The notes under the pieces were generated by a model that worked only from the letters and a program-made list of their open reading frames with translations, was not told the origin of the DNA and did not search any database. Shown piece by piece: positions 28,001-46,509 of a DNA stretch of 64,000 bases (position 1 is the first letter of the stretch; every line of letters starts with the position of its first letter). The stretch covers positions 4,836,001 through 4,900,000 of the forward strand of contig NZ_CP128360.1 in assembly GCF_030345095.1 (NCBI RefSeq), read 5' to 3'. Origin of the DNA: Solwaraspora sp. WMMA2056 (lineage in GTDB: Bacteria; Actinomycetota; Actinomycetes; Mycobacteriales; Micromonosporaceae). Made by a program: the position numbers and the translations under genes.

Positions 28001-28071
28001 GCGCGCATCTGGCGGCGGTGGGCCGCCACCGCGACGAGGTCGGCGTCAGCGCGCCGGCACCGGGTCGCTGA
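25015..28071 (+). CDS. AfsR/SARP-family transcriptional regulator
   Basis: A 1018-residue large SARP (AfsR of Streptomyces is about 990). Domains in order: OmpR-like winged helix (about 1-95, LRIQILGQVRAWRDGEQLDL), bacterial transcriptional activation domain (about 100-245), NB-ARC ATPase (about 285-540) with Walker A GTAGVGKTALA and the LLVVLDNAA Walker B, then about six tetratricopeptide repeats (about 700-940, e.g. ALGNLGVFHGQQGQYDQARE). Such proteins activate secondary-metabolite or differentiation genes. The start is a GTG. Its 3' end overlaps the convergent glycan-locus gene by 26 bp, so it is a candidate regulator of that locus. Confidence 0.93.
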   Translation: MTTLRIQILGQVRAWRDGEQLDLGPAAQRAVLGLLALACGQPVRTAEISAVVWPDRSPPPSARNVIQTHVKHLRRRLEPDRPPRAPSQVLRQVGDGYALQLPDSAVDALRFRDLLIAATGRQRAGDLRRAADELEEALALWHGPPMADIPDLTTHPRVVALVEERHAALARYGEVMIASGRAAEAVPALEEAAAAQPLDEAAQARLIRAYQAAGQRARAFHTYHQVRHRLTDELGVDPGPELSAAHTTLLHDEDPNTAAAGPAPTGAQRSDQRDTRTAPAAPAQLPADIPDFTGRGTELARLDSLLDATDPGGGTVPGVTLVATSGTAGVGKTALAIRWAHRVRHRFPDGQLYVDLQGYDAGQPVSPGHALAGFLRALGVTGPDLPLDLDERAACYRSLVDGRRLLVVLDNAASAEQVRPLLPGSPSCFVLVTSRDSLAGLVARHGARRIDLDPLPLDEAVALIHRLIGARVTAEHTAAAVLAAQCARLPLALRVAAEMAATRPGAPLVELVRELADQHRRLDLLDAGGDLRTGVRAVFSWSYLHLPTDAARAFRLLGLHPGPGLEPYAAAAVIGTTVADARRLLDLLARAHLLERGPQHRYGMHDLLRAYAVDLAEAQDAPVDRHRSMTALFDHYLHTAATAMDLLYPAERHRRPAVTGPLAAARPLADPANARSWLEQERANLVAIMAHAAGHGWPEHARRLVLTVFRYLEGAGHYPDAVTAHQHGLLAAAAIGDRDSQAHMMTNIAVVYGMQGHRKLVVDHLQRALVLYRQTGERAGEARALGNLGVFHGQQGQYDQAREHLQEALTLLRATGETHGEAMALGNLGWIHVLQGRYAEASEHLDRAIVLCRRIGHRVGMAFALDSFGQLHARLGRFRDAADHHGRALQIYRDTRQPVGQASALVGLADALMEVGDPAAAREHYRQALSIAAQIGDRTQQARAHAGLARAGQRLVDTDRAPAAGPERTPDEVWDHWCHALSHFSAIGAPEAEQIRAHLAAVGRHRDEVGVSAPAPGR

Positions 28072-29071
28072 CCAGCGCACCGACACCCCGCTGTCGACGT
28101 CGGTGCAGATACTCGGCGAGCGCCAGTCCGCCGGCACCGACCGCGACGTCGCTGAGCACCGACACCACCCGGCTGGCCAACACGACGGTGCCGGCCAGGG
28201 GCAGTGGCATCACCGTGGCCAGTCCCACGACGAGCACCGCCTCCCGCACCCCGATGCCGTCCGGGGCGATCATCACCAGCAGCCCGGTGACCGTCGCCAA
28301 CCCGAACCCGGCCACACACACGAGGTAGGAACGGCCGGGCGGCGCCCCGGCCACCACGGCCAGCACCCACAGGTGATGTCCGGAGACCCACCAGGACAGC
28401 GCCTGCGCGACGATCGCGCGGCGGACGCCACCCGGGGTGGCACCGAACTGCGGCTCCGGCCGCCGCAGCAGCCTCGCGGCGAACCGTACGGTCCGGTCGA
28501 GCAACTGCGGGCGGATCAGCAGGACCACCACCGGCAGGGCGGCCAGCAGCAGCCACCACACCCCGCCACCGACGACCGCCGGGCCGGCGGCGATGCCGAT
28601 GGTCAGCCCGGTGAGCGCCACGATGCTCCAGCTGACCGCGAACACCGACGCCAGCCGGACCGGACCGACGTCGACCTGCCTACCCAGCCGCAGCAGCACC
28701 GGCACCGCGACGAACCGGCCCGGCACGAACTTCACCAGGAACCCGACGAAGAAGATCCGCAGTGCGGTCCAGGTGGGCACCTGGGCACCGAGATCGACGA
28801 AGACCGCGCGCCAGGACAGCACGCCGAGGGCCAGGCCGAGACAGTTGATCCCGATCGCGGCCGCCACCGCCAGGTAGCCGGTCACCGGATCCAGCGAAGC
28901 GGCCAGTTCGACGACCGGGGTCCAGTCCTGGGTACGCAGCACGGTCACCACGCCGACGACGAGCAGCACCACGAAGAGCACCACGAAGGCCCGGTTCAGT
29001 AGCCGCCACCAGCGACTCCAGCGGCCCGCCGGGCGCATCCCGCCGACCGCCGGTGGCATCCCGCCGCTCAC
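28046..29071 (-). CDS. lysylphosphatidylglycerol-synthase TM-domain (flippase-like) protein
   Basis: A 341-residue integral membrane protein of the UPF0104/LPG-synthase transmembrane family (also called AglD C-terminal-like). About eight helices are visible, with FLVKFVPGRFVAVPVLLRL and MIAPDGIGVREAVLVVGL as family hallmarks. There is no aminoacyl-transferase domain, so it is not MprF itself; such stand-alone proteins are often suspected lipid or lipid-linked glycan translocases. GTG 29071 overlaps the previous stop (GTGA). It is the last gene of the leftward glycan operon. Confidence 0.82.
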   Translation of the reverse strand: MSGGMPPAVGGMRPAGRWSRWWRLLNRAFVVLFVVLLVVGVVTVLRTQDWTPVVELAASLDPVTGYLAVAAAIGINCLGLALGVLSWRAVFVDLGAQVPTWTALRIFFVGFLVKFVPGRFVAVPVLLRLGRQVDVGPVRLASVFAVSWSIVALTGLTIGIAAGPAVVGGGVWWLLLAALPVVVLLIRPQLLDRTVRFAARLLRRPEPQFGATPGGVRRAIVAQALSWWVSGHHLWVLAVVAGAPPGRSYLVCVAGFGLATVTGLLVMIAPDGIGVREAVLVVGLATVMPLPLAGTVVLASRVVSVLSDVAVGAGGLALAEYLHRRRQRGVGALVSDPVPAR

Positions 29072-30138
29072 CGGTCGGCCCGCCGCGAGCTGGCCGGTGC
29101 GCGCCATCTGCTCCGCAGCGCCGCAGCAGCGAACCCGGCGGCCATGCCGGCCAACTGGGTGGTGTGCATGACGAAGTGCATGCCGACGAAGTACACCAGG
29201 AAGCGGTTGCCCTTGCGTCGCCACACGAAGCGCAGCAGTCCACGGTCGACGACGAGGAAGGCCGCGCCGAACAACGCCGGTAGCACCAGTAGCCACTTGT
29301 CGAACAGCGCCAACGGGAGGGTGACCAACGCCGCCGTACAGCAGAACATGGCCACGGCCGCGGCGACGTCGAAGCCGCGCCCCGGTCGGTCCGTACCGTC
29401 GGACAGGCCCGACGTGTGCGGTCGGTGCGGCGACCGCCGCCGGGCGCCGACCAGGGTGCCGGCGAGCAGCGCGCCGTAGCTGACGGCGCGCCGGACGTGC
29501 TCGGCGAGAAACGGCCCCAGTCGGTCGACGTCGTCGTGGCGGCCGATCACCTGCGCGCTCATCCTGATCTGGTAACGCTGCGGCAGCCGGGTGCCGAACT
29601 CGACGTCCTCGGAGTCGCGCAGGCGCTCGTCGAATCCACCGACCGCGTCGAACGCCTCGCGACGGATCGCGGTGAGTGCGAACAGGGTCGAGTCCGCGAC
29701 GCCCGCGCGCCGACGCCGCCAGTAGTGCTCGAACAGTGTCTTGTACACCTCCACCGGGCCGTCGGCGGCGAACGGCTCGGCGGCGTAGATGCCCTGCACC
29801 ACACCGCACTCGGGGTGCGCGGCCAGCACCCGCAGCGCGTTGCCGATCGCGTCCGGCGCGAGCGCGATGTCGGAGTCGAGGAAGAAGAGCACCTCACCGG
29901 TGGCGAGGGCGGCACCGGCGTTGCGGGCCGCCGAGACGCCCCGGTTGGCAGGCAGGCAGACCAGTTGGCACGGCAGGCCGGCGGCGATCTCCCGGGACCC
30001 GTCGGTGCTGGCGTCGTCGACCACGACCACCTCCACCGGCTGGCAGGTCTGCCGGTACACCGACCGTACGCATTCGGCCAACGTCTTGGCCTTGTTGTAC
30101 GTCGGAATGATCACCGACACCCTCGGCACCCCGGTCAC
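29068..30138 (-). CDS. membrane-anchored family 2 glycosyltransferase (paralogue 1)
   Basis: A 356-residue GT2 enzyme. The catalytic domain starts VSVIIPTYNKAKTLAECVRS, with VVVDDASTDGS and the metal-binding FFLDSDIA. A GHDDV-like region (GRHDDVDRL) follows FDERLRDSEDVEFGTRL, the acceptor-site region. The C-terminus has two or three membrane helices and the signature VGMHFVMHTTQLAGMAAGF shared with three other GT2 genes here. GTG 30138 overlaps the upstream stop (GTGA). Sugar donor and acceptor unknown. Confidence 0.87.
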   Translation of the reverse strand: MTGVPRVSVIIPTYNKAKTLAECVRSVYRQTCQPVEVVVVDDASTDGSREIAAGLPCQLVCLPANRGVSAARNAGAALATGEVLFFLDSDIALAPDAIGNALRVLAAHPECGVVQGIYAAEPFAADGPVEVYKTLFEHYWRRRRAGVADSTLFALTAIRREAFDAVGGFDERLRDSEDVEFGTRLPQRYQIRMSAQVIGRHDDVDRLGPFLAEHVRRAVSYGALLAGTLVGARRRSPHRPHTSGLSDGTDRPGRGFDVAAAVAMFCCTAALVTLPLALFDKWLLVLPALFGAAFLVVDRGLLRFVWRRKGNRFLVYFVGMHFVMHTTQLAGMAAGFAAAALRSRWRAPASSRRADR

Positions 30139-31256
30139 CACGACACCCACATCGTCTGAGGCAGGTGGTCCGACATTCCCCGCGCGTCGCCGAACTCGTA
30201 CCGGTGCACGGTCAGCGGATCCGAGACCAGTGCCCAGTCCAGCCGCCACGCCGACGGCTGCTCGGTCGGCCACGAGCCCGGGTAGAAGGACCTGCTGGCC
30301 GACACCGCGTCACGCAACCCCGAGGGCAGCCGGCGGGTGTCCCCCATCGCCGGCGTCGTGTTGAGGTCACCGGCCAGCAGCACCGGGTACGGGTTGGCCG
30401 CCACATCGGCGGCGAGCACCCGCCACTGTGCGAGGCGGCGCTGCCGCTGTTGGCGTACCGTGTCGTGGAACTGCCGGCTGAACACGCTCGGTCCGCCCAC
30501 CCACAGCGGCACCGGCAGATGCGCGTTGTACGTCGAGAGCACCCGGTCGCCGACCTGCAGGTCGGTCCGGAGCACCTGGTAGTGCCAGAAGTCCACGAAG
30601 TCGTCCGGTGCCGGGGGCAGCCCGGCGGCCTCCAACGGCACCTGCTCGACGATCGGGAACCGCGACACGGTGACCAGTTCGCCGACGACCGCGACGTGGT
30701 AGCCGGGCAGCTCGCGGGCCAGCCGGTCCAGGTCGTCGATCGGCACGATCGCCCCGTCGACCTCGGCGATGTACTCCTGCAGCAGGTACACGTCGGCCCG
30801 CTGATCGCGCAGCAGCCGGTAGAAGTCCGCCGGCTGCTCACCGGAATGCCAGTAGCCGGTGTTCCAGGACACCACCCGTACCGCCTCCGCCGGCACCGGC
30901 TGCTCGCCACGCAGCGGACCCGGCAGGTTGATCCCGGACAGCCCGGCCCCGAGGATCAGGGCCGCCGCGCACAACAGCGCCGCGGGCCGCCGGGTCCGCC
31001 GGCACCCGGCGGCCGCCGCCGCGAACGTCAACGGTACGGCGACGAACAGCAGCGGCGGGGTCAGCTCGGCCAGCAGCCACCACCACACCCGCCCGCTGAG
31101 TGCCCGGTGGGCCAGCACGTACAGCAGCCACACCGCCGAGCCGGTCAGGAACAGCCGGCCCAGCCAGCGCCGCCACCACCGCCCCCAGGGCCCCGGCCCC
31201 GGTGCGGCGGCGACGGCCTCCACCGGGGCCGGCGCGATCTGCGGTGACGCGGTCAC
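30135..31256 (-). CDS. membrane-anchored endonuclease/exonuclease/phosphatase-family protein
   Basis: A 373-residue protein. Three or four hydrophobic helices (about 30-120) precede a catalytic EEP domain (about 125-373): VVSWNTGYW, LLQEYI, NAHLPVPLW, LLAGDLNTTP and MSDHLPQTM are the conserved metal-dependent phosphodiesterase motifs. The topology places the active site outside the membrane. In a glycan operon the likely substrate is a phosphodiester such as a lipid-linked intermediate rather than DNA; this is inference. GTG 31256 overlaps the preceding stop (GTGA). Confidence 0.82.
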   Translation of the reverse strand: MTASPQIAPAPVEAVAAAPGPGPWGRWWRRWLGRLFLTGSAVWLLYVLAHRALSGRVWWWLLAELTPPLLFVAVPLTFAAAAAGCRRTRRPAALLCAAALILGAGLSGINLPGPLRGEQPVPAEAVRVVSWNTGYWHSGEQPADFYRLLRDQRADVYLLQEYIAEVDGAIVPIDDLDRLARELPGYHVAVVGELVTVSRFPIVEQVPLEAAGLPPAPDDFVDFWHYQVLRTDLQVGDRVLSTYNAHLPVPLWVGGPSVFSRQFHDTVRQQRQRRLAQWRVLAADVAANPYPVLLAGDLNTTPAMGDTRRLPSGLRDAVSASRSFYPGSWPTEQPSAWRLDWALVSDPLTVHRYEFGDARGMSDHLPQTMWVSW

Positions 31257-32272
31257 GCGGTCGCCTCCACCGGAAAGGTGCTGTCGTAGATCTGCCGGAA
31301 CGGTCGCGACACCAGCCACTGCAGGGCACCGGCCGCCACCCCGGCGGTGATGGTCACGTTCACCAGGAAGTGCACCGCTACGAAGAACATCAGGAACACC
31401 GGGCCGCGCCGGCGGTAGGCCAGCGCATAAAGTTCGCGGTCGGCGGCGACCGACGCGGCGACCAGCGCGGCCGGGACGAGCAGCCACCACGGCCCGAACA
31501 GCACCGGCAGCGCCAACGCCGGCAGGGCGGCGGTCGCGATCAGGCTGCCCCAGGCTCGGGCGGCCGTCTCGAAGCCGGTGGCGAACCGGCGAGCCCGCGC
31601 GTACAGCGGGATCCGTAGCCGGGCCCGGTGGAACAGCTTGCGCAGCAGCGGCAGCAGCTCGTGGTCGTGGTCGTGCCGGCCGCGGACCCGGGAGGTCAGC
31701 CGCAACTGGTGCCGACGGGACAGCCGGTAGCCGTAGTCGACCTCCTCGGTCTGCTTGAGCGCCGGGTTGAACGGACCGATCTCCGCGTAGACGCGACGAC
31801 GGATCGCGCACATCGCCGGAAACAGGAACGTCACGTTGCCTTCTCCGCTGGCCGACCAGTGGTGGTACTGCAGACCCCGGTAGCGGGCCACCAACGTGTC
31901 GTGCAGCAACGGCTCCGGGTCCTCGATCCCGCAGACCGCCCCGACCTGCGGTTCGGCCTCGAGCAGCGCCACCGCCTCGGCGACGGCGTCGGGTGCCATC
32001 GCCACGTCGGCATCGACGAAGAACAGGATCTCGCCGCTGGTGTTCGCCACGCCGACGTTGCGGGCCCGGCCGCAGCCGCCGTTGTCCGGCAGGGCGATCA
32101 CCCGTACGCCGAGGGCCCGCGCGACCGCCACCGAGTCGTCGGTGCTGTGGTCGTCGACCACCAGCACCTCGATCTGCGGATAGGTCTGCGCGGCGATGGC
32201 CCGCAGGCACACGTGCAGGGAGGCGGCGTAGTTGTAGCTCGGCACGATCACCGAGACCTTCGGCAGCGTCAT
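31253..32272 (-). CDS. membrane-anchored family 2 glycosyltransferase (paralogue 2)
   Basis: A 339-residue GT2 enzyme. Motifs: VSVIVPSYNYAASLHVCLRA, VVDDHSTDDS, NGGCGRARNVGV, FFVDADVA, and the acceptor-site region KQTEEVDYGYRLSRRHQL followed by GRHDHDHEL. The C-terminus has membrane helices and VAVHFLVNVTITAGVAAGA. It is close in sequence to the next upstream gene, suggesting recent duplication. Its ATG lies 1 nt after that gene's stop. Donor unknown. Confidence 0.88.
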   Translation of the reverse strand: MTLPKVSVIVPSYNYAASLHVCLRAIAAQTYPQIEVLVVDDHSTDDSVAVARALGVRVIALPDNGGCGRARNVGVANTSGEILFFVDADVAMAPDAVAEAVALLEAEPQVGAVCGIEDPEPLLHDTLVARYRGLQYHHWSASGEGNVTFLFPAMCAIRRRVYAEIGPFNPALKQTEEVDYGYRLSRRHQLRLTSRVRGRHDHDHELLPLLRKLFHRARLRIPLYARARRFATGFETAARAWGSLIATAALPALALPVLFGPWWLLVPAALVAASVAADRELYALAYRRRGPVFLMFFVAVHFLVNVTITAGVAAGALQWLVSRPFRQIYDSTFPVEATA

Positions 32273-32273
32273 G

Positions 32274-33284
32274 TCACACCGCCTGCGCCGGCTTGTCGTA
32301 GAGCCGCCGGAACGCCCGCGAGGTCAGGTAGCTGGCGAAGCCGGTGGCCGCCGCGACCGCCATGACCACGTTGAGGAAGAAGTGCATGGCGACAAAGTAG
32401 GCGACGAACAGCGGGTTGCGGCGAGCCGCGACGAACCGGTACATCGGCCAGTCGCAGGTGACGAAGCCGGCGGCGGCGAGTACCGGCAGCACACTCCACC
32501 AGGGACCGAACACCAGCGGCGCGACGGCGGTCAGCACCACCAGCAGCGCGGCGACGCTGCTCCAGGCCCGGGGCCCACTGCGCAGCCCGCCGGGGAAGGT
32601 CGGATTCTGGGCGTACATCGGAATGTGCAACCTGGTGCGGGTGAAGACCTTGCGGATCATCACCCGCAGTTCGTGGTCGTGGTCGTGGACCCCCCGCACC
32701 GCCGGGGTCAGCCAGATCTCGTACCGGCTGGCCAGCCGGAAGCCGTAGTCGGCGTTCTCGGTCTCCCGCAGCCGGGGGTTGAACGGGCCGATCTCGGCGA
32801 ACACCTCGGCCCGCATCGCCAGCAACGCGGTGTACATGGTGTAGATCCGGCCCTCGTCGGCGATCAGCCAGTAGGACTGCTGCATACAGCGGTACTCCTC
32901 GACCAGGCTGTCGCGGATCAGCGGCACCGGGTCGTAGTTGCCGCAGACCGCGCCGATCTGCGGCCGCTCGGTGAGCAGGGCCACCGCGTTGGCCACGGCG
33001 TCCGGCTTGGCCGCGACGTCGGAGTCGACGAAGAACAGGATCTCGCCGGTGGCGTGGGCGGCCCCGAGGTTGCGGGCCACCGACGGCCCGCCGTTGGCCG
33101 GGGTGCGCACCACCTGGACGCCGTACGACTCGGCCACCGCGACCGAGTCGTCGGTGCTGCAGTCGTCGACGACGATGATCTCCAGGCGAGGGTACGTCTG
33201 GGCTCGAAGGGCGGACAGGCACAGCCCGAGCGCCCGGGCGTAGTTGTAGTTCGGCACGATGACCGACACGAGCGGTTCAGACAT
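32274..33284 (-). CDS. membrane-anchored family 2 glycosyltransferase (paralogue 3)
   Basis: A 336-residue GT2 enzyme. Motifs: VSVIVPNYNYARALGLCLSA, VVDDCSTDDS, NGGPSVARNLGA, FFVDSDVA, RETENADYGFRLASRYEI, GVHDHDHELR, and the C-terminal membrane part with FVAMHFFLNVVMAVAAATGF. ATG 33284 was chosen because the conserved sequence starts right after it; a GTG 21 nt upstream is possible. No strong ribosome site is seen for either. It follows the UbiA gene after a 64-nt gap. Confidence 0.87.
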   Translation of the reverse strand: MSEPLVSVIVPNYNYARALGLCLSALRAQTYPRLEIIVVDDCSTDDSVAVAESYGVQVVRTPANGGPSVARNLGAAHATGEILFFVDSDVAAKPDAVANAVALLTERPQIGAVCGNYDPVPLIRDSLVEEYRCMQQSYWLIADEGRIYTMYTALLAMRAEVFAEIGPFNPRLRETENADYGFRLASRYEIWLTPAVRGVHDHDHELRVMIRKVFTRTRLHIPMYAQNPTFPGGLRSGPRAWSSVAALLVVLTAVAPLVFGPWWSVLPVLAAAGFVTCDWPMYRFVAARRNPLFVAYFVAMHFFLNVVMAVAAATGFASYLTSRAFRRLYDKPAQAV

Positions 33285-33348
33285 GGACACACACACCGCT
33301 TTCACTGGTCACGAGGTTGCACTGTGGTGGGTTCGGGTGGCGCTGGGG

Positions 33349-34341
33349 TCAGGACGACGGGTAGTTGACGGCGAACAGGGCCGCGCCAACCACCACCGCC
33401 AGCAGGGCGGCGGTGGTCAGGATCAGCCGGTCGCGCAGCAGGGTCCGGACCGGGTCGCCGCCGCCTCGGCGGACCAGCACGGCCTGCAGGTACCGGGAGA
33501 CCCCGAACAGGGTCAACGGAACGGCCGCCAGCAGCAGGGCGTCGCGGTGTGCGCCGACCGGCGCCTCGGAGTTGAGGTAGAGCAGGAACCCGAGGACCGC
33601 CACGGTCGCGTTCACGGTGATCAACTGGTCGGCCAGGCCGAGGTTGTAGCCGCGCAGCGCCGGGCGGTGCGCGGCACCGTCGACGGCGAGTTCCTGCCGA
33701 CGTTTGCCGAGGATCAGCAGCAGGCAGGTGGCGAAGACCGTGGTCAGCAGCCAGGCGGACACCGGGCCGCCGGTCGCGGCGTAGCCGAGCAGGACGCGCA
33801 GCACGAATCCGGCGGCGACGACGCTGATGTCGATCAGCGGTACGTGTTTGAGCCACCGGCTGTACGCCAGGTTCAGCACCAGGTAGCCGGCCAGCGGCCA
33901 CCAGGCGATGTCGGGTCCGACGACGACGGCCGTGCCGAGCAGCCCGGTCAGCACCGCAGCGATCGTCCAGGCCAACGTCGGCGAGATCCGGCCACTGGCC
34001 ACCGGGCGGGACCGTTTGCCCGGGTGCCCCCGGTCCAAGTGCCGGTCGGCGACGTCGTTGACGACGTACACCAGCGACGACGCCAGGGTGAACAGCAGCA
34101 CCGCCCACCCGACCCGGCCCACCGTCGCCGCGGTCCACGCCGGCGCGTCGAGCAGCGCCAGGGGCACCGCCAGCAGGTTCTTCGTCCACTGCTGCGGGCG
34201 CAGCAACGTGGTCAGGTCCGTGCCGGCGCGTACCGACCGGGCGATCCAGCCGGGCCGGACGTCGGCCGTCGGGCCGGCGGGGTCGCCCGCCACCGACCCG
34301 GGTGCCGGCATCGGCTCGGCTGCCACCTCCACAGCGGTCAT
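33349..34341 (-). CDS. UbiA-family prenyltransferase, decaprenyl-phosphate phosphoribosyltransferase-like
   Basis: A 330-residue UbiA-superfamily membrane enzyme with about eight helices. The opening TTLLRPQQWTKNLLAVPLAL resembles decaprenyl-phosphate phosphoribosyltransferase (Rv3806c type). The Asp-rich motif is NDVADRHLDRGHPGKRSRPV (about 97-116); the second motif region is NLAYSRWLKHVPLIDISVV. Such enzymes move phosphoribose from PRPP to a polyprenyl phosphate, making the lipid-linked pentose donor for cell-wall arabinan. An NAD-dependent epimerase lies just upstream. Specificity is inferred. Confidence 0.84.
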   Translation of the reverse strand: MTAVEVAAEPMPAPGSVAGDPAGPTADVRPGWIARSVRAGTDLTTLLRPQQWTKNLLAVPLALLDAPAWTAATVGRVGWAVLLFTLASSLVYVVNDVADRHLDRGHPGKRSRPVASGRISPTLAWTIAAVLTGLLGTAVVVGPDIAWWPLAGYLVLNLAYSRWLKHVPLIDISVVAAGFVLRVLLGYAATGGPVSAWLLTTVFATCLLLILGKRRQELAVDGAAHRPALRGYNLGLADQLITVNATVAVLGFLLYLNSEAPVGAHRDALLLAAVPLTLFGVSRYLQAVLVRRGGGDPVRTLLRDRLILTTAALLAVVVGAALFAVNYPSS

Positions 34342-34354
34342 CGCGCACCTCCTG

Positions 34355-35395
34355 TCAGAAGAAGACCTTGGCGGCGGCGAGGACGCCCTGGCGCCACGGA
34401 TCCCGGCTGGTCCGGCCGCTGGCGGCAGGGCTGACGGCGGTGGCACGCTGCGCCTGCCACCAGCGGAACGTCTCCAGCACCGCGTCCTGGTTGCTGTACC
34501 GGGGGGTGAAGCCGAGTCGGTGCCGGGCGCGACCGATGTCGACGTACGAGTCGTCGCGCAGTTTGTGCAGCAGCCGCCCGTACACCGGGGAAAGCCCGGT
34601 GCGCTGCAGCAGGCCGAGCGCGGCGCGGGCCGGGCCGGCCGGCAGCGCCACGACCCGTTTGCCGTGCCCGGCCGCGTCGAGCACCGCCTGGAAGTCCTCG
34701 CGCAGGGTGCCGAACTCGGCGGCCCCGATGTTGTACGTGTCGTTGGCGACGGCGGCCGGTGCCCGCAGCACGGTGACGACGGCCTCGACCAGGTCGGCGA
34801 CGTGCAGCATCTGGATCCGCACCCGGCCGTCACCGAGCACCGGGAAGTTGCGCCCTTCCTGGGCCCACTGGAACAGCATCGAGAACAGCCCCATCCGGCC
34901 GGGCCCCAGGAACGTCTTGGGCCGCAGCACCGGCAGCACCAGACCGGTGTCGCGGTAGCCGATCGCCAGCCGTTCGGCGTCGGCCTTGGCGGTGCTGTAC
35001 GGATCCACCGGCGCGTACGGGTGTTCCTCCGGCGTGGGCACCTGGCGGGGCAGTCCGTAGACGGCGGTCGAGGAGATGTAGACCAGTCGGGCGACACCGG
35101 CCGTACGGGCGGCGTCGAGCACCGCGCGCGAGCCGTCGACCACGATGGAGCGGATCTGCGCCGCCGGGTAGCTCGGCAGCGCGGCGGCGCAGTGCACGAC
35201 CGCGTCGACGCAGTCGAAGGCGACCCGCAGCACTGCCGGATCCCGCACGTCACCGACCAGGTGCCGGTACCCGCCGGTCGGACCGCCGGGTGCCGGCTCA
35301 CGCAGGTCGACCCCGACGACCTCGGCACCGTCGGCGACGAGTCGGGCCACCACCGATGCGCCGAGCATCCCGGCGGCGCCGGTCACCGCGATCAC
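34355..35395 (-). CDS. NAD-dependent epimerase/dehydratase (extended SDR)
   Basis: A 346-residue nucleotide-sugar-type short-chain dehydrogenase. The NAD motif is VIAVTGAAGMLGASVVARL (1-19). The catalytic serine/threonine lies in LVYISSTAVYG and the YxxxK pair in DPYSTAKADAERL. GTG 35395 overlaps the stop of the aminotransferase gene (GTGA). It could act on a nucleotide sugar or on a lipid-linked sugar made by the UbiA enzyme encoded next; the sequence does not decide. Confidence 0.87.
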   Translation of the reverse strand: MIAVTGAAGMLGASVVARLVADGAEVVGVDLREPAPGGPTGGYRHLVGDVRDPAVLRVAFDCVDAVVHCAAALPSYPAAQIRSIVVDGSRAVLDAARTAGVARLVYISSTAVYGLPRQVPTPEEHPYAPVDPYSTAKADAERLAIGYRDTGLVLPVLRPKTFLGPGRMGLFSMLFQWAQEGRNFPVLGDGRVRIQMLHVADLVEAVVTVLRAPAAVANDTYNIGAAEFGTLREDFQAVLDAAGHGKRVVALPAGPARAALGLLQRTGLSPVYGRLLHKLRDDSYVDIGRARHRLGFTPRYSNQDAVLETFRWWQAQRATAVSPAASGRTSRDPWRQGVLAAAKVFF

Positions 35396-36807
35396 CACAG
35401 CGAGCCCACCTTCTGCGCCACGAACCGGGTGAGCAGCCGGGTGAGGCCCTGGCCGAGCACGGTGTCGAGGCTGTCGAGGAAGTACTCGACGTCGTCGTCG
35501 GAGACGACCAGTGGCGGGCCGACCACCAACGGGCTGGCCCCGTTGAGGGTGTAGTAGGTGTAGATGTCGTGGTCGCGGTACAGCGCGTTGATCACCGCGC
35601 AGGTCACCACCTTGGTCCGCAGCCGGGGGTCGCGGGCCAGTCCGGCCGGGGCGAGCTTCGCCGCCAGGTCCAGTACCTTCGGTCCGCCGTCGATGAACAC
35701 CCCCCACAGCGCTCCCGCGCCGGTCACGTCGGCTACCGAGTCGGGGTGCTGCTTGGCGATGCGGCGCAGCCCGGCGGCCAGCTGCTGTTCGATGTGTCGT
35801 GCCCGCGCCGGATAGTCGTCGTCGATGGCGACGTTGACCGCCTCGATGGCGGTGGCGCATTCCTCACCGAAGCCGTAGTAGGTGGTCGACGTCGAGTGCA
35901 GCAACGCGTCCATCGGATTGTCGTATGCCTTGCGGAAGATCGGCTCCCGCGCGACGTACGCCGAGATCGACGACTTGCCGCCACCGAAGGACTTGGAGGT
36001 GGTCAGTACGTCCGGCAGCAGACCCGGGTACCGCATGAAATAGAACAGACTGCCGGTCTTGCCCCACCCGGTGTAGATCTCGTCGAAGATGAGCACTATG
36101 CGGTGCGCGGTGCACAGTTCCCGCAGCCCGCGCAGGAACTCCTCGCTGCACCAGCGCATCGTCGAGGCACTGAACGGCTCGATCAGGATCGCGTACACGT
36201 CGTCAGGATGGGCGGCGACGGCGGCCCGTACCGATTCCAGGTCATCGTACTGAAACGTGACGACCCCGGAAATGCCGGGAAATTTGAAGTGGTTCTGCGC
36301 GCCGCCAGTCAAACTACCCGAACCGAGCAGTTTTCCGTGGAAACTGATGTCGGCGCGCAGGATCGTATGGCGTCGCCCCCCGTGGTACTTGTAGGCGAGC
36401 TTGACCGCGCCTTCGACCGCCTCCGCCCCGGAGTTCGGCAGGAACGACATGTTCAGGTCGCCGGGAAGCACCTCGGCCAGGTTGTGCGCCAGGCCGGCGA
36501 CGTACGGCGAGAAGTAGGTCTTGTGCACCTCCATGCGGCGTCGCTCGGCGAATCGGCGCCGCACGGCCATCACCCGGGGGTGGTTGTGTCCGTGGTTGAG
36601 CACGCCGACGCCGCCGGTGAAGTCGAGGATGCGCCGGCCGTCGCGCAGGTAAAGGTAGGCGCCCTCGGCGTGGTCGACCAGCTCGCGGCCGAAGCCGAAG
36701 GACGTCATCAGCCCGACCTGGCTGCGGTTGACGTACTGACGGTAGAGGTCGTGCACTCGCTTGACCGGAAGCTCGTCGCAGTCATCGACGCTGAACAGAG
36801 CCACCAC
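35392..36807 (-). CDS. class III (aspartate aminotransferase family) PLP aminotransferase
   Basis: A 471-residue PLP-dependent transaminase. Features: LDFTGGVGVLNHGHNHP near residue 60, NSGAEAVEGAVKLAYKY (phosphate binding), IFDEIYTGWGKTG (PLP aspartate) and the Schiff-base lysine in LTTSKSFGGGKSS. GTG 36807 follows AAAGGG by 7 nt; upstream in-frame codons run into the divergent promoter region. It heads the leftward glycan operon, so it may make an amino sugar or an amino-acid decoration. It resembles diaminobutyrate/ornithine-type enzymes in general layout, but the substrate is uncertain. Confidence 0.85.
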   Translation of the reverse strand: MVALFSVDDCDELPVKRVHDLYRQYVNRSQVGLMTSFGFGRELVDHAEGAYLYLRDGRRILDFTGGVGVLNHGHNHPRVMAVRRRFAERRRMEVHKTYFSPYVAGLAHNLAEVLPGDLNMSFLPNSGAEAVEGAVKLAYKYHGGRRHTILRADISFHGKLLGSGSLTGGAQNHFKFPGISGVVTFQYDDLESVRAAVAAHPDDVYAILIEPFSASTMRWCSEEFLRGLRELCTAHRIVLIFDEIYTGWGKTGSLFYFMRYPGLLPDVLTTSKSFGGGKSSISAYVAREPIFRKAYDNPMDALLHSTSTTYYGFGEECATAIEAVNVAIDDDYPARARHIEQQLAAGLRRIAKQHPDSVADVTGAGALWGVFIDGGPKVLDLAAKLAPAGLARDPRLRTKVVTCAVINALYRDHDIYTYYTLNGASPLVVGPPLVVSDDDVEYFLDSLDTVLGQGLTRLLTRFVAQKVGSLW

Positions 36808-37060
36808 GCATCGGCCCTTTCTCCAGAGCAGGTGGAATTCTCCTGAAACCGGTGTCGGCGTCGGGCGTCCACCAGGAGTCGGCATGGATTTTTCCGGACC
36901 GCACTGAATGGCGACTGGAGCGCCACTGAATTGATGCTGGATCACGATTGGACGACCACAGGGACCAATTGACCAGGGACGCTGCCACGGATAGCCTTTC
37001 GCCCAGTCACGACGGCGGGGTGAACTTCCCCGGTCCCCGCACTCCGACAAGGTGGTGTCC
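36808..37060. promoter_or_regulatory. divergent promoter region of the glycan locus
   Basis: 253 bp between the leftward aminotransferase gene and the rightward GT2 gene. CACTGAAT occurs twice (36902-36909 and 36924-36931), 22 bp apart, about two helical turns, with the short inverted repeat TGGCG/CGCCA between. The stretch is less GC-rich than the coding DNA and is the likely control point for both operon arms. Confidence 0.5.
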
Positions 37061-38062
37061 GTGCCTACGCACGTATCGGTCGTCATTCCTGCCTACAACA
37101 ACGAACGCACCCTGCACGCCTGCCTGTCCGCGGTGTACGCCCAGACGCATCCGCCGACCGAGGTGATCGTGGTCGACGACGCGAGTACCGACCGCACCCG
37201 GGAGATCGCCCGCCAGTTCCCGGTACGGCTGTTGCACACACCGGTCAACAGCGGCCCGGCCGCCGCCCGCAACCGGGGCATCCGGGCCAGCACCGGCGCG
37301 GTGATCCTGTTCGTGGACGCCGACTGCGCCCCGACCCCCACCGCGCTCACCACCGCGCTGGACATCCTCGCTCGGACACCGGGTATCGACTGCGTACACG
37401 GGATCTACCTGACCGAGCCGCTGTACGACGACGGCCCGGTCGAGGCGTACCGCCTGCTGCACGCGCACTACTGGCGGCTACGCAGCGTCGGCCGGGTCCG
37501 GACCGCGATCTTCGCACTCTGCGCGGTGCGCCGCGACGTCTTCGACGACGTCGGACTCTTCGACGAACGGTTGCGGGCCTCCGAGGACGTCGAACTCAGC
37601 GACCGGATGGCCGACCGGCACGGCATCTGGCTGTCCGCCGAGATGACCTGCCACCACGACGACGACAGCCGGCTGGGATCGCTGCTGCGCAAGCAGTTCG
37701 GCCGCTCGCAACTGCTGGTGCCGGTGGCGGTGCGCGAACGCGGGCCGGCCGGGCTGCGCGCCAACCGACCGGCCGGGGTGCTGGCCACCGCCGCGATGCT
37801 GGCCACCCTGCCCCTGGCGGCGCTGACCCCGACGCTGCTGGTGCTGCCGGGCGCGGCGCTGGTCTGGTTCGCCGCCGCCGACCCCGGCCTGGTCCGGTTC
37901 GTCCGGCGCCAGCGCGGCACTGCGTTCGTCGGCTTCTTCCTCGCCCTGCACCTGCTGGTGCATCTGGCGATCGTCGGCGGCGCCGCGGTCGGCGGCGTAC
38001 GGTTCCTGCTCGACCGCGACTTCGGCCCGAGCCGGCAGCTGCGCCCGAGGCCGGGCCGGTGA
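37061..38062 (+). CDS. membrane-anchored family 2 glycosyltransferase (paralogue 4)
   Basis: A 333-residue GT2 enzyme, start of the rightward arm. Motifs: HVSVVIPAYNNERTLHACLSA, VVDDASTDRT, NSGPAAARNRGI, LFVDADCA, DERLRASEDVELSDRM and CHHDDDSRL. The C-terminus has membrane helices and LALHLLVHLAIVGGAAVGG, as in the three leftward copies. It is closest to paralogue 1 (both have EVYK/EAYR...HYWR in the middle). GTG 37061 was chosen with AAGGTGG just before it; two GTG codons 6 and 9 nt upstream are alternatives. Confidence 0.86.
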   Translation: MPTHVSVVIPAYNNERTLHACLSAVYAQTHPPTEVIVVDDASTDRTREIARQFPVRLLHTPVNSGPAAARNRGIRASTGAVILFVDADCAPTPTALTTALDILARTPGIDCVHGIYLTEPLYDDGPVEAYRLLHAHYWRLRSVGRVRTAIFALCAVRRDVFDDVGLFDERLRASEDVELSDRMADRHGIWLSAEMTCHHDDDSRLGSLLRKQFGRSQLLVPVAVRERGPAGLRANRPAGVLATAAMLATLPLAALTPTLLVLPGAALVWFAAADPGLVRFVRRQRGTAFVGFFLALHLLVHLAIVGGAAVGGVRFLLDRDFGPSRQLRPRPGR

Positions 38063-38859
38063 CCGGGCCGACCCCGCCGGCCGGCGGGCGGGGACGCGAC
38101 GAGGAACGCCCCGGCGGGAGCCCACTGATCGGAGGTAGGTCCACCGACGGACGCCTGGCGCGGGCGCGGGGGCGGGCCTGGGAGGCGATGTTCCTCGGGG
38201 TACGGACCTACCACCGGCTACGCATCCGCCCGGCGCACCCCGGGCCGACCTGGCCGGTGTTCCGGATCGACGCCGACACGGTCGCGCTCACCGTCGACGA
38301 CGGTCCCGATCCCCGCTGGACCCCGGCGCTGCTCGACCTGCTGGCCCGCTACGACGTGCCGGCGACGTTCTTCCTGATCGGTGAGCGGGCCACCGCGTAT
38401 CCGGAGCTGGCCCGGCGGATCGCGGCCGCCGGGCACCGGATCGGCAACCACTCGTTGCGGCATCCGATGCCGTTCGCGGCGCTGCCGACGGCCGCGCTGC
38501 GCGCCGAGATCACCCAGGCGCAGCAGCGGATCCTCGACGCTACCGGGGTACGGGCCGAACTGTTCCGCGCCCCCAGCGGCGGCTGGTCCACCGAGGTGCT
38601 CGCGGCGACCGCCGACGCCGGGCTGGTCCCGGTCGACTGGAGCGTCAACTCCAGCGACTGGAGGGAACCCGGCGTCGACCGCATCACCCGGACCCTGTCC
38701 CGGGCCCGCCCCGGGCACATCCTGCTCTGCCACGACGGCGGCGGCGACCGGTCGCAGACCGTGGCCGCGCTCGACACCGTACTGCCCCGGCTGCTGCGAC
38801 GCGGACTGCGGTTCGCGCCGGTGCCCGGCCGACCCACCACCACCGACCAGGAGGCATGA
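38059..38859 (+). CDS. polysaccharide deacetylase (NodB domain)
   Basis: A 266-residue carbohydrate esterase family 4 protein. The NodB motifs are all present: LTVDDGPDPRWTP (catalytic and metal Asp), HRIGNHSLRHP (metal histidines), LFRAPSGGWS, VDWSVNSSDW and ILLCHDGGG (catalytic His). No clear signal peptide; the N-terminal 45 residues are Gly/Arg-rich. It would remove N-acetyl groups from an amino sugar, on the cytoplasmic side if not exported. GTG 38059 overlaps the GT2 stop (GTGA). Confidence 0.9.
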   Translation: MTGPTPPAGGRGRDEERPGGSPLIGGRSTDGRLARARGRAWEAMFLGVRTYHRLRIRPAHPGPTWPVFRIDADTVALTVDDGPDPRWTPALLDLLARYDVPATFFLIGERATAYPELARRIAAAGHRIGNHSLRHPMPFAALPTAALRAEITQAQQRILDATGVRAELFRAPSGGWSTEVLAATADAGLVPVDWSVNSSDWREPGVDRITRTLSRARPGHILLCHDGGGDRSQTVAALDTVLPRLLRRGLRFAPVPGRPTTTDQEA

Positions 38860-38860
38860 G

Positions 38861-39493
38861 ATGGCACACCCGATCTTCCGACTGGCCGGACGGCTGCTGA
38901 ACTGGCCGTTGACCGTGCTGGTCCGCCCGTACCCCCGGCTCAACGCCATCGCCTGGGACCTGCAGTACGCCCTCGGGCTGTGGCGCTACCTCGACCGGGG
39001 CCGCGACCCGGTGCCGTTGGCGCTCGCCCAGCGGGTCACCGACCGGCCCCGGATCCTGGACCTGGGCTGCGGTACGACGGTCAATCTGGCGCTGCCGGCC
39101 GACGGGTACCGGCACTACCACGGGGTGGACATCAGTCGTACGGCGATCCGCCGGGCCAGGTCGCTGCGTCGGCCGAACACCTCGTTCGAGGTCGCCGACC
39201 TGGTCACCTACCAGAGCACCGCCAGGTACGACGCGATCCTGCTGCGCGAGGTGATGTACTACCTCACCCCGCAGGAGGCGATCGCCGTGCTGCGCCGCGC
39301 GGCCGGGATGCTCGACCCGGGCGGCCGGGTCCTGATCTGGCTGTACGACGGCACCGCAGCGGTGGCGGCGGTGCTGCCCCGGCTGCGGGAGTGCGGGTTG
39401 ACGGTCCACGCCGAACTGCCCGACGGCGACACCGGTGACGGTGTCGTGCTGGTGCTGGGTGCCGACGACCCGGCGCACAGCAGGCAGCCGTGA
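38861..39493 (+). CDS. SAM-dependent class I methyltransferase
   Basis: A 210-residue methyltransferase with SAM-binding motif I ILDLGCGTTVN (about 64-74), VDISRTAIRRARSL as motif II, and LLREVMYYLTPQEA as motif IV region. The first 40 residues are hydrophobic/amphipathic and may bind a membrane. A GGAGG site precedes the ATG, which is 1 nt after the deacetylase stop. The acceptor is unknown; a sugar hydroxyl or lipid carrier is likely from context. Confidence 0.84.
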   Translation: MAHPIFRLAGRLLNWPLTVLVRPYPRLNAIAWDLQYALGLWRYLDRGRDPVPLALAQRVTDRPRILDLGCGTTVNLALPADGYRHYHGVDISRTAIRRARSLRRPNTSFEVADLVTYQSTARYDAILLREVMYYLTPQEAIAVLRRAAGMLDPGGRVLIWLYDGTAAVAAVLPRLRECGLTVHAELPDGDTGDGVVLVLGADDPAHSRQP

Positions 39494-40740
39494 CCGCACC
39501 GGTGGCCGGTACGACGCCGGACCGGCCGTTGGTCAGGACCTGGCTGTACGCCGTGGCGATCGCGACCGGCCTGGCTGGCGCGGCGGCGGCGGTGGTGCAC
39601 CAGGTCACCGGACGGTTCTGGGGCGACCTCGGTGCCTACCGGGCCGGAGCGGTGGCCGCCGCCACCGGTGACGGCAACCTGTACCAGGCCAGCCACCTCA
39701 CCCCCGACGGCATCGCCCTGGGTTTCACCTATCCACCCTTCGCCGCGCTGCTGATGCAGCCGCTGGCGGTGCTGAGCATGCCGGTCGCCGTCGCCACCTG
39801 GACCGTGGTCAGCGTCGTGGCGCTGGTCGCGGTGATCGGCCTGGTGCTGCACCAGGTCGGTACGCCGGACCGGCACCGGCCGGCCACGACGATCGGCGCG
39901 CTGGTCGCCGCGCTGCCGGTCTTCGCGGTCGCCGGGCACCTGCAGGTCGGGCAGGTCGGGCTGATCCTGATGTGGCTGGTGCTGGCGGATCTGGTCGGCG
40001 GCCGGCACCGCCGGTGGCACGGGCTCGGTGTGGGCATCGCCGCCGGGATCAAGCTCACCCCGTTGGTCTTCATCGGGCTGCTGGTGCTGACCGGCCGGTG
40101 GCGGGCCGCGGCCACCGCGCTCGGCGGCTTCGCCGCGACCGTCGCGGTCGGGTTCGCCTGGCGCCCGGCCGACTCGGCGTGGTTCTTCTCCGGCGGTCTG
40201 CTGGACACCGACCGGGTCACCGGTGACCCCCGTACCGTGCTCAACCAGTCGCTGGCCGGTGCGGTGACCCGGGTGGCGGACGACCCGACGCCGGGGTTCG
40301 TCTGGTGGGTGCTGGCCGCCGTGGCCGCCGTGGCCGGATTGGCAGTCGCCGTCGGTCAGCACCGCCGGGGCGACGTGCTGACCGCCGTCCTGGTCTGCGC
40401 CGCGACCGGCCTGCTGGTCTCCCCGGTCTCCTGGCACCACCACTGGGTGTGGTGGGTGCCGGCGCTGCTGCTGCTCGGCGGGCACGCCTGGCGGCACCGG
40501 CACCGGACGGCGACGGCCACCACCGTCGGCGTCTGGGTCGTGCTGGTCGCCAGCACCAGCTGGGTGCTGGCCGCCCCGGGCGGCTGGGACCTGCACTTCA
40601 CCGGCCTCGGGCTGGTCTACAGCAACCTCTACGTACTGCTGGGCGTGGCCGGGATCGGCGTCGCCGGCTGGCGGCTGCGCCAGCCGACGGGGCCGCCTCG
40701 ACCGGCGACCGTCGATACCCTGTCGGGCAGTCAACCGTGA
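39490..40740 (+). CDS. GT87-family polyprenyl-phosphate-dependent glycosyltransferase
   Basis: A 416-residue membrane enzyme with about ten helices, of the DUF2029/GT87 family (mycobacterial PimE type mannosyltransferases that use polyprenyl-phosphate sugars outside the membrane). GDLGAYRAGAV (about 39-49) holds the expected catalytic Asp of the first loop; FTYPPFAALLMQPLAVL is the family hallmark, and VSPVSWHHHWVWWVPALLLL the second. GTG 39490 overlaps the methyltransferase stop (GTGA). It closes the rightward arm. Confidence 0.88.
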   Translation: MTAPVAGTTPDRPLVRTWLYAVAIATGLAGAAAAVVHQVTGRFWGDLGAYRAGAVAAATGDGNLYQASHLTPDGIALGFTYPPFAALLMQPLAVLSMPVAVATWTVVSVVALVAVIGLVLHQVGTPDRHRPATTIGALVAALPVFAVAGHLQVGQVGLILMWLVLADLVGGRHRRWHGLGVGIAAGIKLTPLVFIGLLVLTGRWRAAATALGGFAATVAVGFAWRPADSAWFFSGGLLDTDRVTGDPRTVLNQSLAGAVTRVADDPTPGFVWWVLAAVAAVAGLAVAVGQHRRGDVLTAVLVCAATGLLVSPVSWHHHWVWWVPALLLLGGHAWRHRHRTATATTVGVWVVLVASTSWVLAAPGGWDLHFTGLGLVYSNLYVLLGVAGIGVAGWRLRQPTGPPRPATVDTLSGSQP

Positions 40741-40759: not shown

Positions 40760-41707
40760 GTGCACATCAGACCATTCGGCACCACCGGGATGCAGGTCAG
40801 CGCGATCGGCCTCGGGGCCTGGCAGCTGGGCCGCTCGACACACTGGCCGGACGGCCCCGACGAGGCCGAGGCGGTGCGGATCGTGCACGCTGCGCTCGAT
40901 GCCGGGGTCACCTTCATCGACACCGCACCGGGTTATGCCGACGGGGCCAGCGAGCTCAACATCGGCCGGGCGCTGACCGGCCGACGCCGCGACGAGGCGA
41001 TCATCTGCACCAAGGTCGGCTACCTGCCCGACGGCAGCGAGAACTGGTCGGCCAGCGAGATCGAGGCCTCGGTGGCCCGCAGCGCCCACCGGATGAACGT
41101 CGACCACGTCGACATCGTGGTGCTGCACAACCCACCGCCGGAGATCCTCGACGGCAGCCGATCCGACCACTACGACGTCCTGCAACGGCTGCAGGACAAG
41201 GGCCACATCCGGGCGTACGGGGCGTCGGTCGACTGGAGCGCGGACCTGGACATGGCCGCGGACACCAGCGCCTCCACCGCGTTCGAGGTCCGGCTGTCCG
41301 CGCTCTACCAGGAGCCGTGGCCGGCGGTGGGCCGGGCCCGCGACCGGGGCGCCGGCATCATCGTCAAGGTGCCGTTGGAGTCCGGCTGGCTGTCCGGGCG
41401 GTACACCGCCGACAGCGTGTTCACCGACGTACGGGACCGCTGGTCACGCGCGGACGTGGCGGTGCGGGCCGGCCTGGTACGGGAGTTCGCGGCGCTGCTG
41501 CCCGCCGGGGTGAGTCTGCTCTCCGGTGCGCTGCGGTTCCTGCTCAGCTACGACGCGGTGTCGACGGTCATCCCCGGCACCAAGTCGGTGGCACAACTGC
41601 ACAGCAGCGTCGCCGCCGCCGCCGACGGGCCGCTGCCAGCCGAGGTGGTCGGGGCCATCCGCGCCTGGTACGACCAGCGGCTGGCCGCCGCGCCGCTGGA
41701 CTGGTGA
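40760..41707 (+). CDS. aldo/keto reductase
   Basis: A 315-residue NADPH-type aldo/keto reductase. It begins VHIRPFGTTGMQVSAIGLGAWQLG and has the catalytic residues in order: FIDTAPGYADGASELNIGRAL (Asp, Tyr), ICTKVGYL (Lys), and VDIVVLHNPP (His). The cofactor region VSTVIPGTKSVAQL is near the C-terminus. GTG start follows GAAGGGA. It is 19 nt after the GT87 gene, so it may belong to the glycan operon, but it may equally be a separate housekeeping reductase. Confidence 0.88.
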   Translation: MHIRPFGTTGMQVSAIGLGAWQLGRSTHWPDGPDEAEAVRIVHAALDAGVTFIDTAPGYADGASELNIGRALTGRRRDEAIICTKVGYLPDGSENWSASEIEASVARSAHRMNVDHVDIVVLHNPPPEILDGSRSDHYDVLQRLQDKGHIRAYGASVDWSADLDMAADTSASTAFEVRLSALYQEPWPAVGRARDRGAGIIVKVPLESGWLSGRYTADSVFTDVRDRWSRADVAVRAGLVREFAALLPAGVSLLSGALRFLLSYDAVSTVIPGTKSVAQLHSSVAAAADGPLPAEVVGAIRAWYDQRLAAAPLDW

Positions 41708-44246: not shown

Positions 44247-44284
44247 CTACGTTTCCAACGCTTCCTCGATTGAGCGGGGCCTGC

Positions 44285-46342: not shown

Positions 46343-46509
46343 CGCGTCGAACTCCCGGGTGCCGGCCAGCGCGCCCCTGTCCACGCCGGCACGGACGCCG
46401 ACGGGCGGGACCCGGTGGCCTGCGGGCCACCGCCTGACGAGCGTAACCGCAGCCCCCGACAGGGCCGCGCCGGGCCGGAAAGCCGGGCCGGCGTGGCGGA
46501 CACGTGCCG

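Follow-up and report, generated by a model that had tools for sequence, protein, structure and literature searches.

A divergent twelve-gene locus of Solwaraspora sp. WMMA2056 that may build a glycan around a polyprenyl-phosphate-linked pentose

Introduction

Lipid-linked pentoses made from phosphoribosyl pyrophosphate (PRPP) are already known for arabinan and for some O antigens. The closest described system to the locus treated here is the three-component pentofuranose addition of Citrobacter youngae O1/O2 (Kelly et al. 2024, PMC11127046). As presented in the main text of that paper, it has a PRPP-using UbiA-type polyprenyl phosphoribose synthase, a cytoplasmic epimerase of the short-chain dehydrogenase/reductase (SDR) type and a dedicated flippase, all of which have predicted counterparts here, and a GT-C acceptor step, which is shared by the present subtype only. 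Our locus comprises twelve genes at positions 28046-40740 of a 64-kb stretch of DNA, hereafter called the window, which corresponds to C1:4836001-4900000 of the single-contig genome (7.01 Mb) of Solwaraspora sp. WMMA2056. On balance, we lean towards reading it as a more elaborate member of a system common among actinobacteria, by which a glycan would be made around a polyprenyl-phosphate-linked, very probably aminated pentose and then exported. Its product is predicted from the genes, and may be polymeric, located on the surface and a glycolipid. Among the open-licence papers of PubMed Central listed in our searches (subscription papers and cluster databases lay outside the scope), none described a matching pathway or gene set, in agreement with an initial annotation of the same DNA, to which no described pathway with this combination of genes was known.

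Organization of the locus

Genes were called with our own script and assigned to families with Pfam, which bore out the twelve genes, the two divergent arms and the families named in the initial annotation. In order of transcription, the minus arm holds AT3, SDR, UbiA, GT2c, GT2b, EEP, GT2a and LPG_TM, and the plus arm holds GT2d, NodB, a methyltransferase (MT) and GT87. The genes are as follows, with Pfam E-values in brackets unless otherwise stated:

28046-29071, minus strand: LPG_TM, MprF-type flippase-like protein (PF03706, 42.7 bits, searched from the alternative start 29107)
29068-30114, minus strand: GT2a, glycosyltransferase with C-terminal hydrophobic segments (PF00535, 7e-32)
30135-31256, minus strand: EEP, membrane-anchored hydrolase of the endonuclease/exonuclease/phosphatase fold (PF03372, 4.4e-18)
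31253-32272, minus strand: GT2b, glycosyltransferase with the altered ED motif TEEVDY (PF00535, 2.9e-32)
32274-33269, minus strand: GT2c, glycosyltransferase with the altered ED motif TENADY (PF00535, 7.9e-32)
33349-34341, minus strand: UbiA-fold protein, predicted polyprenyl-phosphate phosphoribosyltransferase (profile match, and residue test with control)
34355-35398, minus strand: extended SDR of the epimerase/dehydrogenase type (PF01370, 2.1e-40)
35392-36804, minus strand: AT3, class III pyridoxal phosphate (PLP) aminotransferase (PF00202, 2.1e-61)
37061-38062, plus strand: GT2d, glycosyltransferase (PF00535, 9.2e-35)
38059-38859, plus strand: NodB-type (CE4) deacetylase (PF01522, 1.9e-34)
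38861-39493, plus strand: MT, S-adenosylmethionine methyltransferase (PF13649, 1.5e-13)
39490-40740, plus strand: GT87, PimE-like GT-C glycosyltransferase (PF09594, 1.2e-45)

The initial statement that these genes are mostly joined by GTGA/ATGA overlaps turned out to be overstated. Four-base GTGA overlaps occur at three of the ten within-arm junctions (GT2b/EEP, GT2d/NodB and MT/GT87), and at up to five if alternative starts are used for AT3/SDR and GT2a/LPG_TM (for LPG_TM, the GTG at 29071), while no ATGA overlap was seen among the ten. The other junctions are 1-base gaps in two cases and otherwise measure 13, 20 and 79 bases. All 12 genes are under purifying selection, with dN/dS values of 0.03-0.45 against three same-genus relatives, the lowest being those of AT3 (0.03, 0.07 and 0.11). 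The least constrained genes are NodB, MT and GT87, with values of up to 0.45.

A predicted polyprenyl-phosphate phosphoribosyltransferase

The UbiA family profile matched the structures of Mycobacterium tuberculosis Rv3806c (8j8j, E 1.9e-74; 8j8k, E 6.8e-62), with the next UbiA entry in the PDB far behind (E 2.7e-09), so that the likeness to this enzyme noticed initially holds when profiles are compared. The residues of Rv3806c for PRPP, Mg and the lipid phosphate were taken from the relevant part of PMC10994848. Counterparts of R22, K28, Y70, N73, D77, R90, Y138 and K191 are kept in all covering members of an alignment of 24 UbiA proteins, one of which lacks its N-terminus in the gene call, and K87 and K143 are replaced by Arg in one and two members, respectively. 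All 24 have Phe at the position of Y157, as some mycobacteria do according to PMC10994848. As a negative control, the five other UbiA proteins of the genome were compared in the same way, and none of them keeps this residue set.

We are confident in predicting that the protein transfers phosphoribose to polyprenyl phosphate. The first product would very probably be polyprenyl-phospho-ribose-5-phosphate, because the protein keeps the PRPP and polyprenyl phosphate residues of Rv3806c and the five other UbiA proteins of the genome do not. The polyprenyl-linked pentose supply proposed in the initial annotation is thus well supported by the structure match, the substrate residues and the control.

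The relationship to Rv3806c also brings to mind the D-arabinan pathway of mycobacteria, as do proteins with the PF04030 (ALO) domain, presumably the domain family of DprE1, which are encoded elsewhere in the genome. The twelve genes, however, include an aminotransferase and no ALO-domain gene, and no Emb-type arabinosyltransferase (PF04602) was found in the genome by a search in which the C. glutamicum positive control matched. An arabinan pathway is consequently not favored, and we regard it as very improbable.

Conservation and distribution

Two sets of loci outside the source genome were compared, each fetched as regions of about 20 kb. The first was anchored on UbiA (60 of 88 match places outside the source genome), and the second on AT3, by scanning named genomes with an AT3 alignment and keeping the best 80 of 211 candidate relatives. 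The anchor gene is present by construction in each set, at least nine contigs are common to both, and some misses fall on short contigs; since the loci share descent, the counts are not independent trials. The full six-part core of AT3, SDR, UbiA, GT2, EEP and LPG_TM, with GT2-LPG_TM fusions scored as LPG_TM, was found in 43 of the 60 UbiA-anchored and 66 of the 80 AT3-anchored loci. Individually, SDR was present in 56, EEP in 55, GT2 in 54, LPG_TM in 49 and AT3 in 47 UbiA-anchored loci, and the corresponding AT3-anchored numbers were 80 for SDR, 77 for GT2, 75 for UbiA, 74 for EEP and 66 for LPG_TM. AT3 and SDR are near-universal neighbors, the latter directly following the former on the same strand in 46 out of 47 UbiA-anchored and 80 out of 80 AT3-anchored loci, i.e. 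in 126 out of 127, with overlapping gene ends in 45 and 72 of them, respectively. UbiA comes next after this pair in 46 out of 47 and 58 out of 80.

When gene order was compared, as the initial annotation had suggested, the order of all twelve genes recurred in six same-genus loci (L037-L042), and also in Phytohabitans flavus, three Salinispora and Nonomuraea typhae, while Micromonospora and Plantactinospora have the same gene set, or most of it, in a rearranged order. The arrangement is not due to chance. NodB, MT and GT87 are found together in 13 of the 60 UbiA-anchored and 9 of the 80 AT3-anchored loci, both lower bounds given the size of the fetched regions. These three genes are accessory, and what is conserved as a unit is AT3-SDR-UbiA. 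The initial interpretation is supported in part.

UbiA matches at E<=1e-10 were obtained in 75 of 250 genomes of the family, including the six listed same-genus genomes. AT3 at E<=1e-150 was detected in 6 of 394 genomes of the class (source genome included) and in 3 of 396 genomes phylum-wide, and the system is thus accessory and patchily distributed. The AT3-anchored loci come from Streptomyces, Salinispora, Micromonospora, Nonomuraea, Herbidospora and others. Three same-genus genomes (G079, G105 and G114) have three UbiA matches each, every one in a different cluster of similar type. An IS605 OrfB/TnpB-type gene lies within one cluster (L046:8275-9480), and two AT3 relatives lacking annotation turned up in a plasmid search.

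Proposed modification of the lipid-linked pentose

The SDR has the motifs TGAAGMLG and Y134-x3-K138. In an alignment of 21 sequences T6, G7, G10 and G13 are nearly invariant and Y134 and K138 invariant, in keeping with the TGxxGxxG and YxxxK patterns. Its conserved C-terminal tail, GRTSRxPWxQGxLxxAKxFF, perhaps makes contact with the membrane. In AT3, K271 is invariant among 17 aligned sequences and is, by the family motif, presumably the PLP lysine. The best PDB match of AT3 is putrescine aminotransferase 4uox. Of the NCBIfam models PigE scores best, though far below its cut-off (232.5 of 850 bits).

Because SDR accompanies UbiA even where AT3 is missing, SDR would convert the ribose on the lipid to an epimer or introduce a carbonyl, with AT3 as an added amination; SDR first and AT3 afterwards is the simplest order of steps. 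As AT3 adjoins SDR in 126 of the 127 loci that have it, amination appears to be part of the same branch. Ten sister clusters hold UbiA and SDR and no AT3 (L072, L073, L084 and L087-L093), some of them carrying GT4-like and short-chain dehydrogenase genes. Another three loci (L094-L096) keep neither AT3 nor SDR, and their UbiA genes may be ordinary phosphoribosyltransferase genes.

Glycosyltransferases and the GT-C question

Among the GT2 enzymes, GT2b-like proteins have EE in place of the ED catalytic-base motif in at least 78 out of 92 cases, and GT2c-like proteins have EN in at least 38 out of 90, with ED kept in at least 26; the Asp following the altered motif is often retained. PDB matches of NodB include several CE4 deacetylases, and no hydrophobic segment was found in it by hydropathy. 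The GT87 gene product is a member of family GT87, PimE-like by alignment, although its 178 bits are far below the 413 of NF009915 'mannosyltransferase', which we take to be the PimE model. It aligns with the PimE structure 9dm5 (E 7.3e-28), its D46 corresponding to the catalytic D58, so the comparison with PimE proposed in the initial annotation came out in its favor. Judged by eye against the active-site residues in the pertinent part of PMC12041525, D58, Y62, Q163, K195, W319, H321 and H322 are conserved, with Gln in place of D160.

How general a GT-C step is was tallied in 117 AT3 loci, each having four or more core genes; nine loci on duplicate contigs had been taken out, and some of those counted are truncated at a contig end. 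GT87 was found in 19, another polytopic, unclassified candidate in 32 (at least seven hydrophobic segments by a rough hydropathy count, within the block plus two genes) and neither in 66. These numbers bear on a plain three-component pentofuranose donor pathway, in which UbiA and SDR would make a polyprenyl-P-pentofuranose (e.g. of the xylo- or arabino- type). Once flipped, it would be the donor from which GT87 modifies a polymer already present in the envelope, with AT3 and the GT2 enzymes belonging to a separate branch. UbiA, the SDR epimerase, the flippase and the GT-C enzyme would indeed fit what Kelly et al. (2024) describe, SDR is kept without AT3 in 10 of the 60 UbiA-anchored loci, and most PimE active-site residues are retained in GT87. 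Against this, the adjacency of AT3 and SDR makes amination look like a step of the same branch, 66 of the 117 AT3 loci are without GT87 or any polytopic candidate, and GT2 genes are present in 54 of the 60 UbiA-anchored and 77 of the 80 AT3-anchored loci. We therefore find such a pathway quite unlikely. The GT-C tally, together with the pathway differences described in the last section, speaks more for a pentose that serves as a lipid-linked primer or unit extended by the GT2 enzymes than for a simple GT-C donor.

Flippase candidate and hydrolase

The AlphaFold2 (AF2) model of LPG_TM (mean pLDDT 86) has MprF as all of its top five PDB fold matches (TMq 0.50-0.52), with weak E-values (best 1.3e-3, none at E<=0.001), and a sequence search of the PDB gave no match at E<=1. 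Hence the initial description as flippase-like is backed by the fold, less so by the statistics. Twelve GT2-LPG_TM fusion proteins, two of them from one genome, contain both parts, GT2a being fused to LPG_TM in the Salinispora loci, and a GT2-EEP fusion in a single frame is found at L118:13553-15799. These fusions tie GT2, LPG_TM and EEP to each other. From the fold and the GT2 fusions, LPG_TM is best described as an MprF-like, flippase-like protein. Furthermore, an acyltransferase-3 domain (Acyl_transf_3) sits N-terminally on GT2a in Phytohabitans (L047:13618-15849) and N. typhae (L100:16634-18895), a hint that the product may be acylated in these two.

EEP is present as 176 copies in 129 loci. 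In 20 aligned sequences N132, E161, D297 and N299 are invariant, and D363 and H364 nearly so. Its AF2 model has a mean pLDDT of 91 and human neutral sphingomyelinase (8j2f) as top PDB fold match; the leading fold matches all come from one superfamily, many members of which act on DNA, and a PDB sequence search returned two weak matches. Positive charges are found N-terminally and again just ahead of the final hydrophobic helix, and the hydrolase domain is probably extracytoplasmic. VanJ, an EEP enzyme that acts on undecaprenyl pyrophosphate, is not used as an argument here.

Regulation and neighboring genes

Two further elements, both missing from the inventory of the initial annotation, flank or divide the locus:

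25015-28071, plus strand: SARP-type regulator (BTAD, NB-ARC and TPR domains by Pfam), convergent with the LPG_TM gene and probably the regulator of the locus
36903-36952, no strand: putative SARP operator between the two divergent arms, made up of five direct repeats of [AG][CT]TG[AG]A with an 11-base period

Direct repeats spaced by one helical turn in the target promoter are the typical layout for SARP regulation. The same layout is seen here, with such repeats in the divergent promoter and a SARP gene nearby, and the five-repeat array is a putative SARP operator. A three-repeat pattern with up to three mismatches gave three matches in overlapping registers in the window, compared to 0.02 expected. 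Genome-wide, a four-repeat pattern found this promoter (in two registers) and one site elsewhere with three mismatches, and its reversed control had no match in the genome. This second, weaker site (L184) sits among genes with no evident link, and the full array occurs in the genome at the divergent promoter only. Exact three-repeat matches occur at the same divergent place in L037, L039, L042 and three Salinispora loci, L038, L040 and L041 have a variant repeat box, and the array was not seen in L047 and L100. A SARP gene adjoins the LPG_TM end in L037-L042, L047, L097-L100 and L108. The single array could serve as a handle for switching the locus on.

Regulatory genes also raise the question of whether the locus is a specialised-metabolite cluster whose product is a small amino-glycoside that diffuses away, where the lipid carrier would act only as scaffold and EEP would free a soluble product. 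A SARP, response-regulator or LuxR gene is found in 52 of 60 and 67 of 80 of the loci of about 20 kb, and EEP in 55 of 60 and 74 of 80. The patchy spread (AT3 in 6 of 394 class genomes, UbiA in 75 of 250 family genomes), the up to three copies per genome and the 66 of 117 AT3 loci without a GT-C candidate would also suit such a cluster. Yet four membrane-anchored GT2 enzymes and a GT-C enzyme fit an envelope glycan as well, as does the acyltransferase-3 domain that GT2a carries in two relatives, and no resistance gene common to the loci was found among the part of the flanking genes that was scanned. We judge a diffusible product to be rather unlikely.

As for other neighbors, an aldo/keto reductase (AKR) gene (40790-41707) adjoins the locus and has the same place in five of the six same-genus loci (tblastn), while 58 of the 140 loci share another, distinct AKR cluster. 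A topoisomerase pair (gyrase/topoisomerase IV A and B type, 41763-46384) directly flanks the locus, the A-type gene adjoining it in all six same-genus loci. Among 57 of the 92 flanking unclassified proteins tallied by Pfam, no family (among 25 of 86 families) occurred in more than three of the 57.

Proposed pathway

Taken together, an aminated pentose glycan would be made as follows. UbiA would join PRPP and polyprenyl phosphate to polyprenyl-phospho-ribose-5-phosphate, SDR would oxidize or epimerize a ribose carbon while the sugar is lipid-bound, and AT3 would aminate the resulting carbonyl, as suggested by its near-universal adjacency to, and overlap with, SDR beside UbiA. The GT2 enzymes, four in this case, would add further sugars on the cytoplasmic face, with NodB presumably deacetylating and MT methylating the product. 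The MprF-like LPG_TM protein could then flip the lipid-linked product, in line with its fold and GT2 fusions, and the membrane-anchored EEP, probably outside, might remove the 5-phosphate or cleave the lipid phosphate. In this subtype GT87 might add a final sugar outside from a polyprenyl-phosphate donor, and the SARP regulator would control the divergent promoter through the 11-base repeat array.

A more specific variant, somewhat unlikely and offered tentatively, makes polyprenyl-phospho-ribose a primer and not a donor, converted to an amino-pentose by SDR and AT3, extended to an oligosaccharide by the GT2 enzymes, flipped in MprF fashion and released by extracytoplasmic EEP. If true, PRPP would be the starting point of an aminoglycoside-like product put together on a lipid carrier, and our searches of the open-access literature showed no such route. 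An aminated lipid-linked pentose would be a new sugar donor or primer, and AT3, SDR and UbiA form a compact set that could reveal the first product of all such loci.

A number of observations weigh against the reading of the locus as a system for an aminated pentose glycan. UbiA is below the NCBIfam equivalog cut-off (best 170.7 versus 207 bits), which makes it a relative and not an orthologue of the mycobacterial enzyme, and the positions of Rv3806c Q135 and K208 are mostly Asn and Pro, respectively, in the aligned relatives. AT3 is absent from 13 of the 60 UbiA-anchored loci, 10 of which retain SDR; given these, amination is optional. Conversely, 22 of the 80 AT3-anchored loci do not have UbiA directly after SDR, and in five of the 80, partly on short contigs, UbiA was not found. 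With PigE and putrescine-type aminotransferases as the nearest families, a non-sugar substrate of AT3 is possible. Given their altered motifs, GT2b and GT2c are putative glycosyltransferases, and their mechanism may differ. The orientation of EEP is taken from the charge pattern alone, and hydropathy finds two segments where the AF2 model has more helices. Lastly, the exact three-repeat array is absent from 175 of the 184 fetched loci, and therefore belongs to this lineage and Salinispora and not to the core system.

Comparison with known systems

Compared with the system of Kelly et al. (2024), as presented in its main text, most loci here have a class III aminotransferase beside SDR, 'aminotransferase' being a word absent from the main text of PMC11127046. 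The flippase candidate is of the MprF type, as opposed to MATE (or SMR) in that system, and EEP, a putative phosphatase with its catalytic residues kept, is found instead of a HAD-family phosphatase. There are several GT2 enzymes here, GT87 is found instead of GT136, and often no GT-C enzyme is nearby.

With the mycobacterial decaprenyl-phospho-arabinose pathway (Rv3806c, Rv3807c, DprE1/E2 and Emb), the locus has in common the family of the first enzyme and its PRPP and lipid residues, and differs from it by the added aminotransferase, by the lack of an ALO-domain gene in the locus and by the lack of Emb in this genome. GT87 shares seven residues with PimE, including D58, and differs from it at D160, which is Gln here.

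Finally, the Arn pathway places aminoarabinose on lipid A via a UDP-sugar, a DegT-type aminotransferase and GT83. The latter two are not families found here, whereas the logic is a common one, i.e. amination, a polyprenyl-linked aminopentose, a NodB-fold deacylase, a flippase and a GT-C enzyme.

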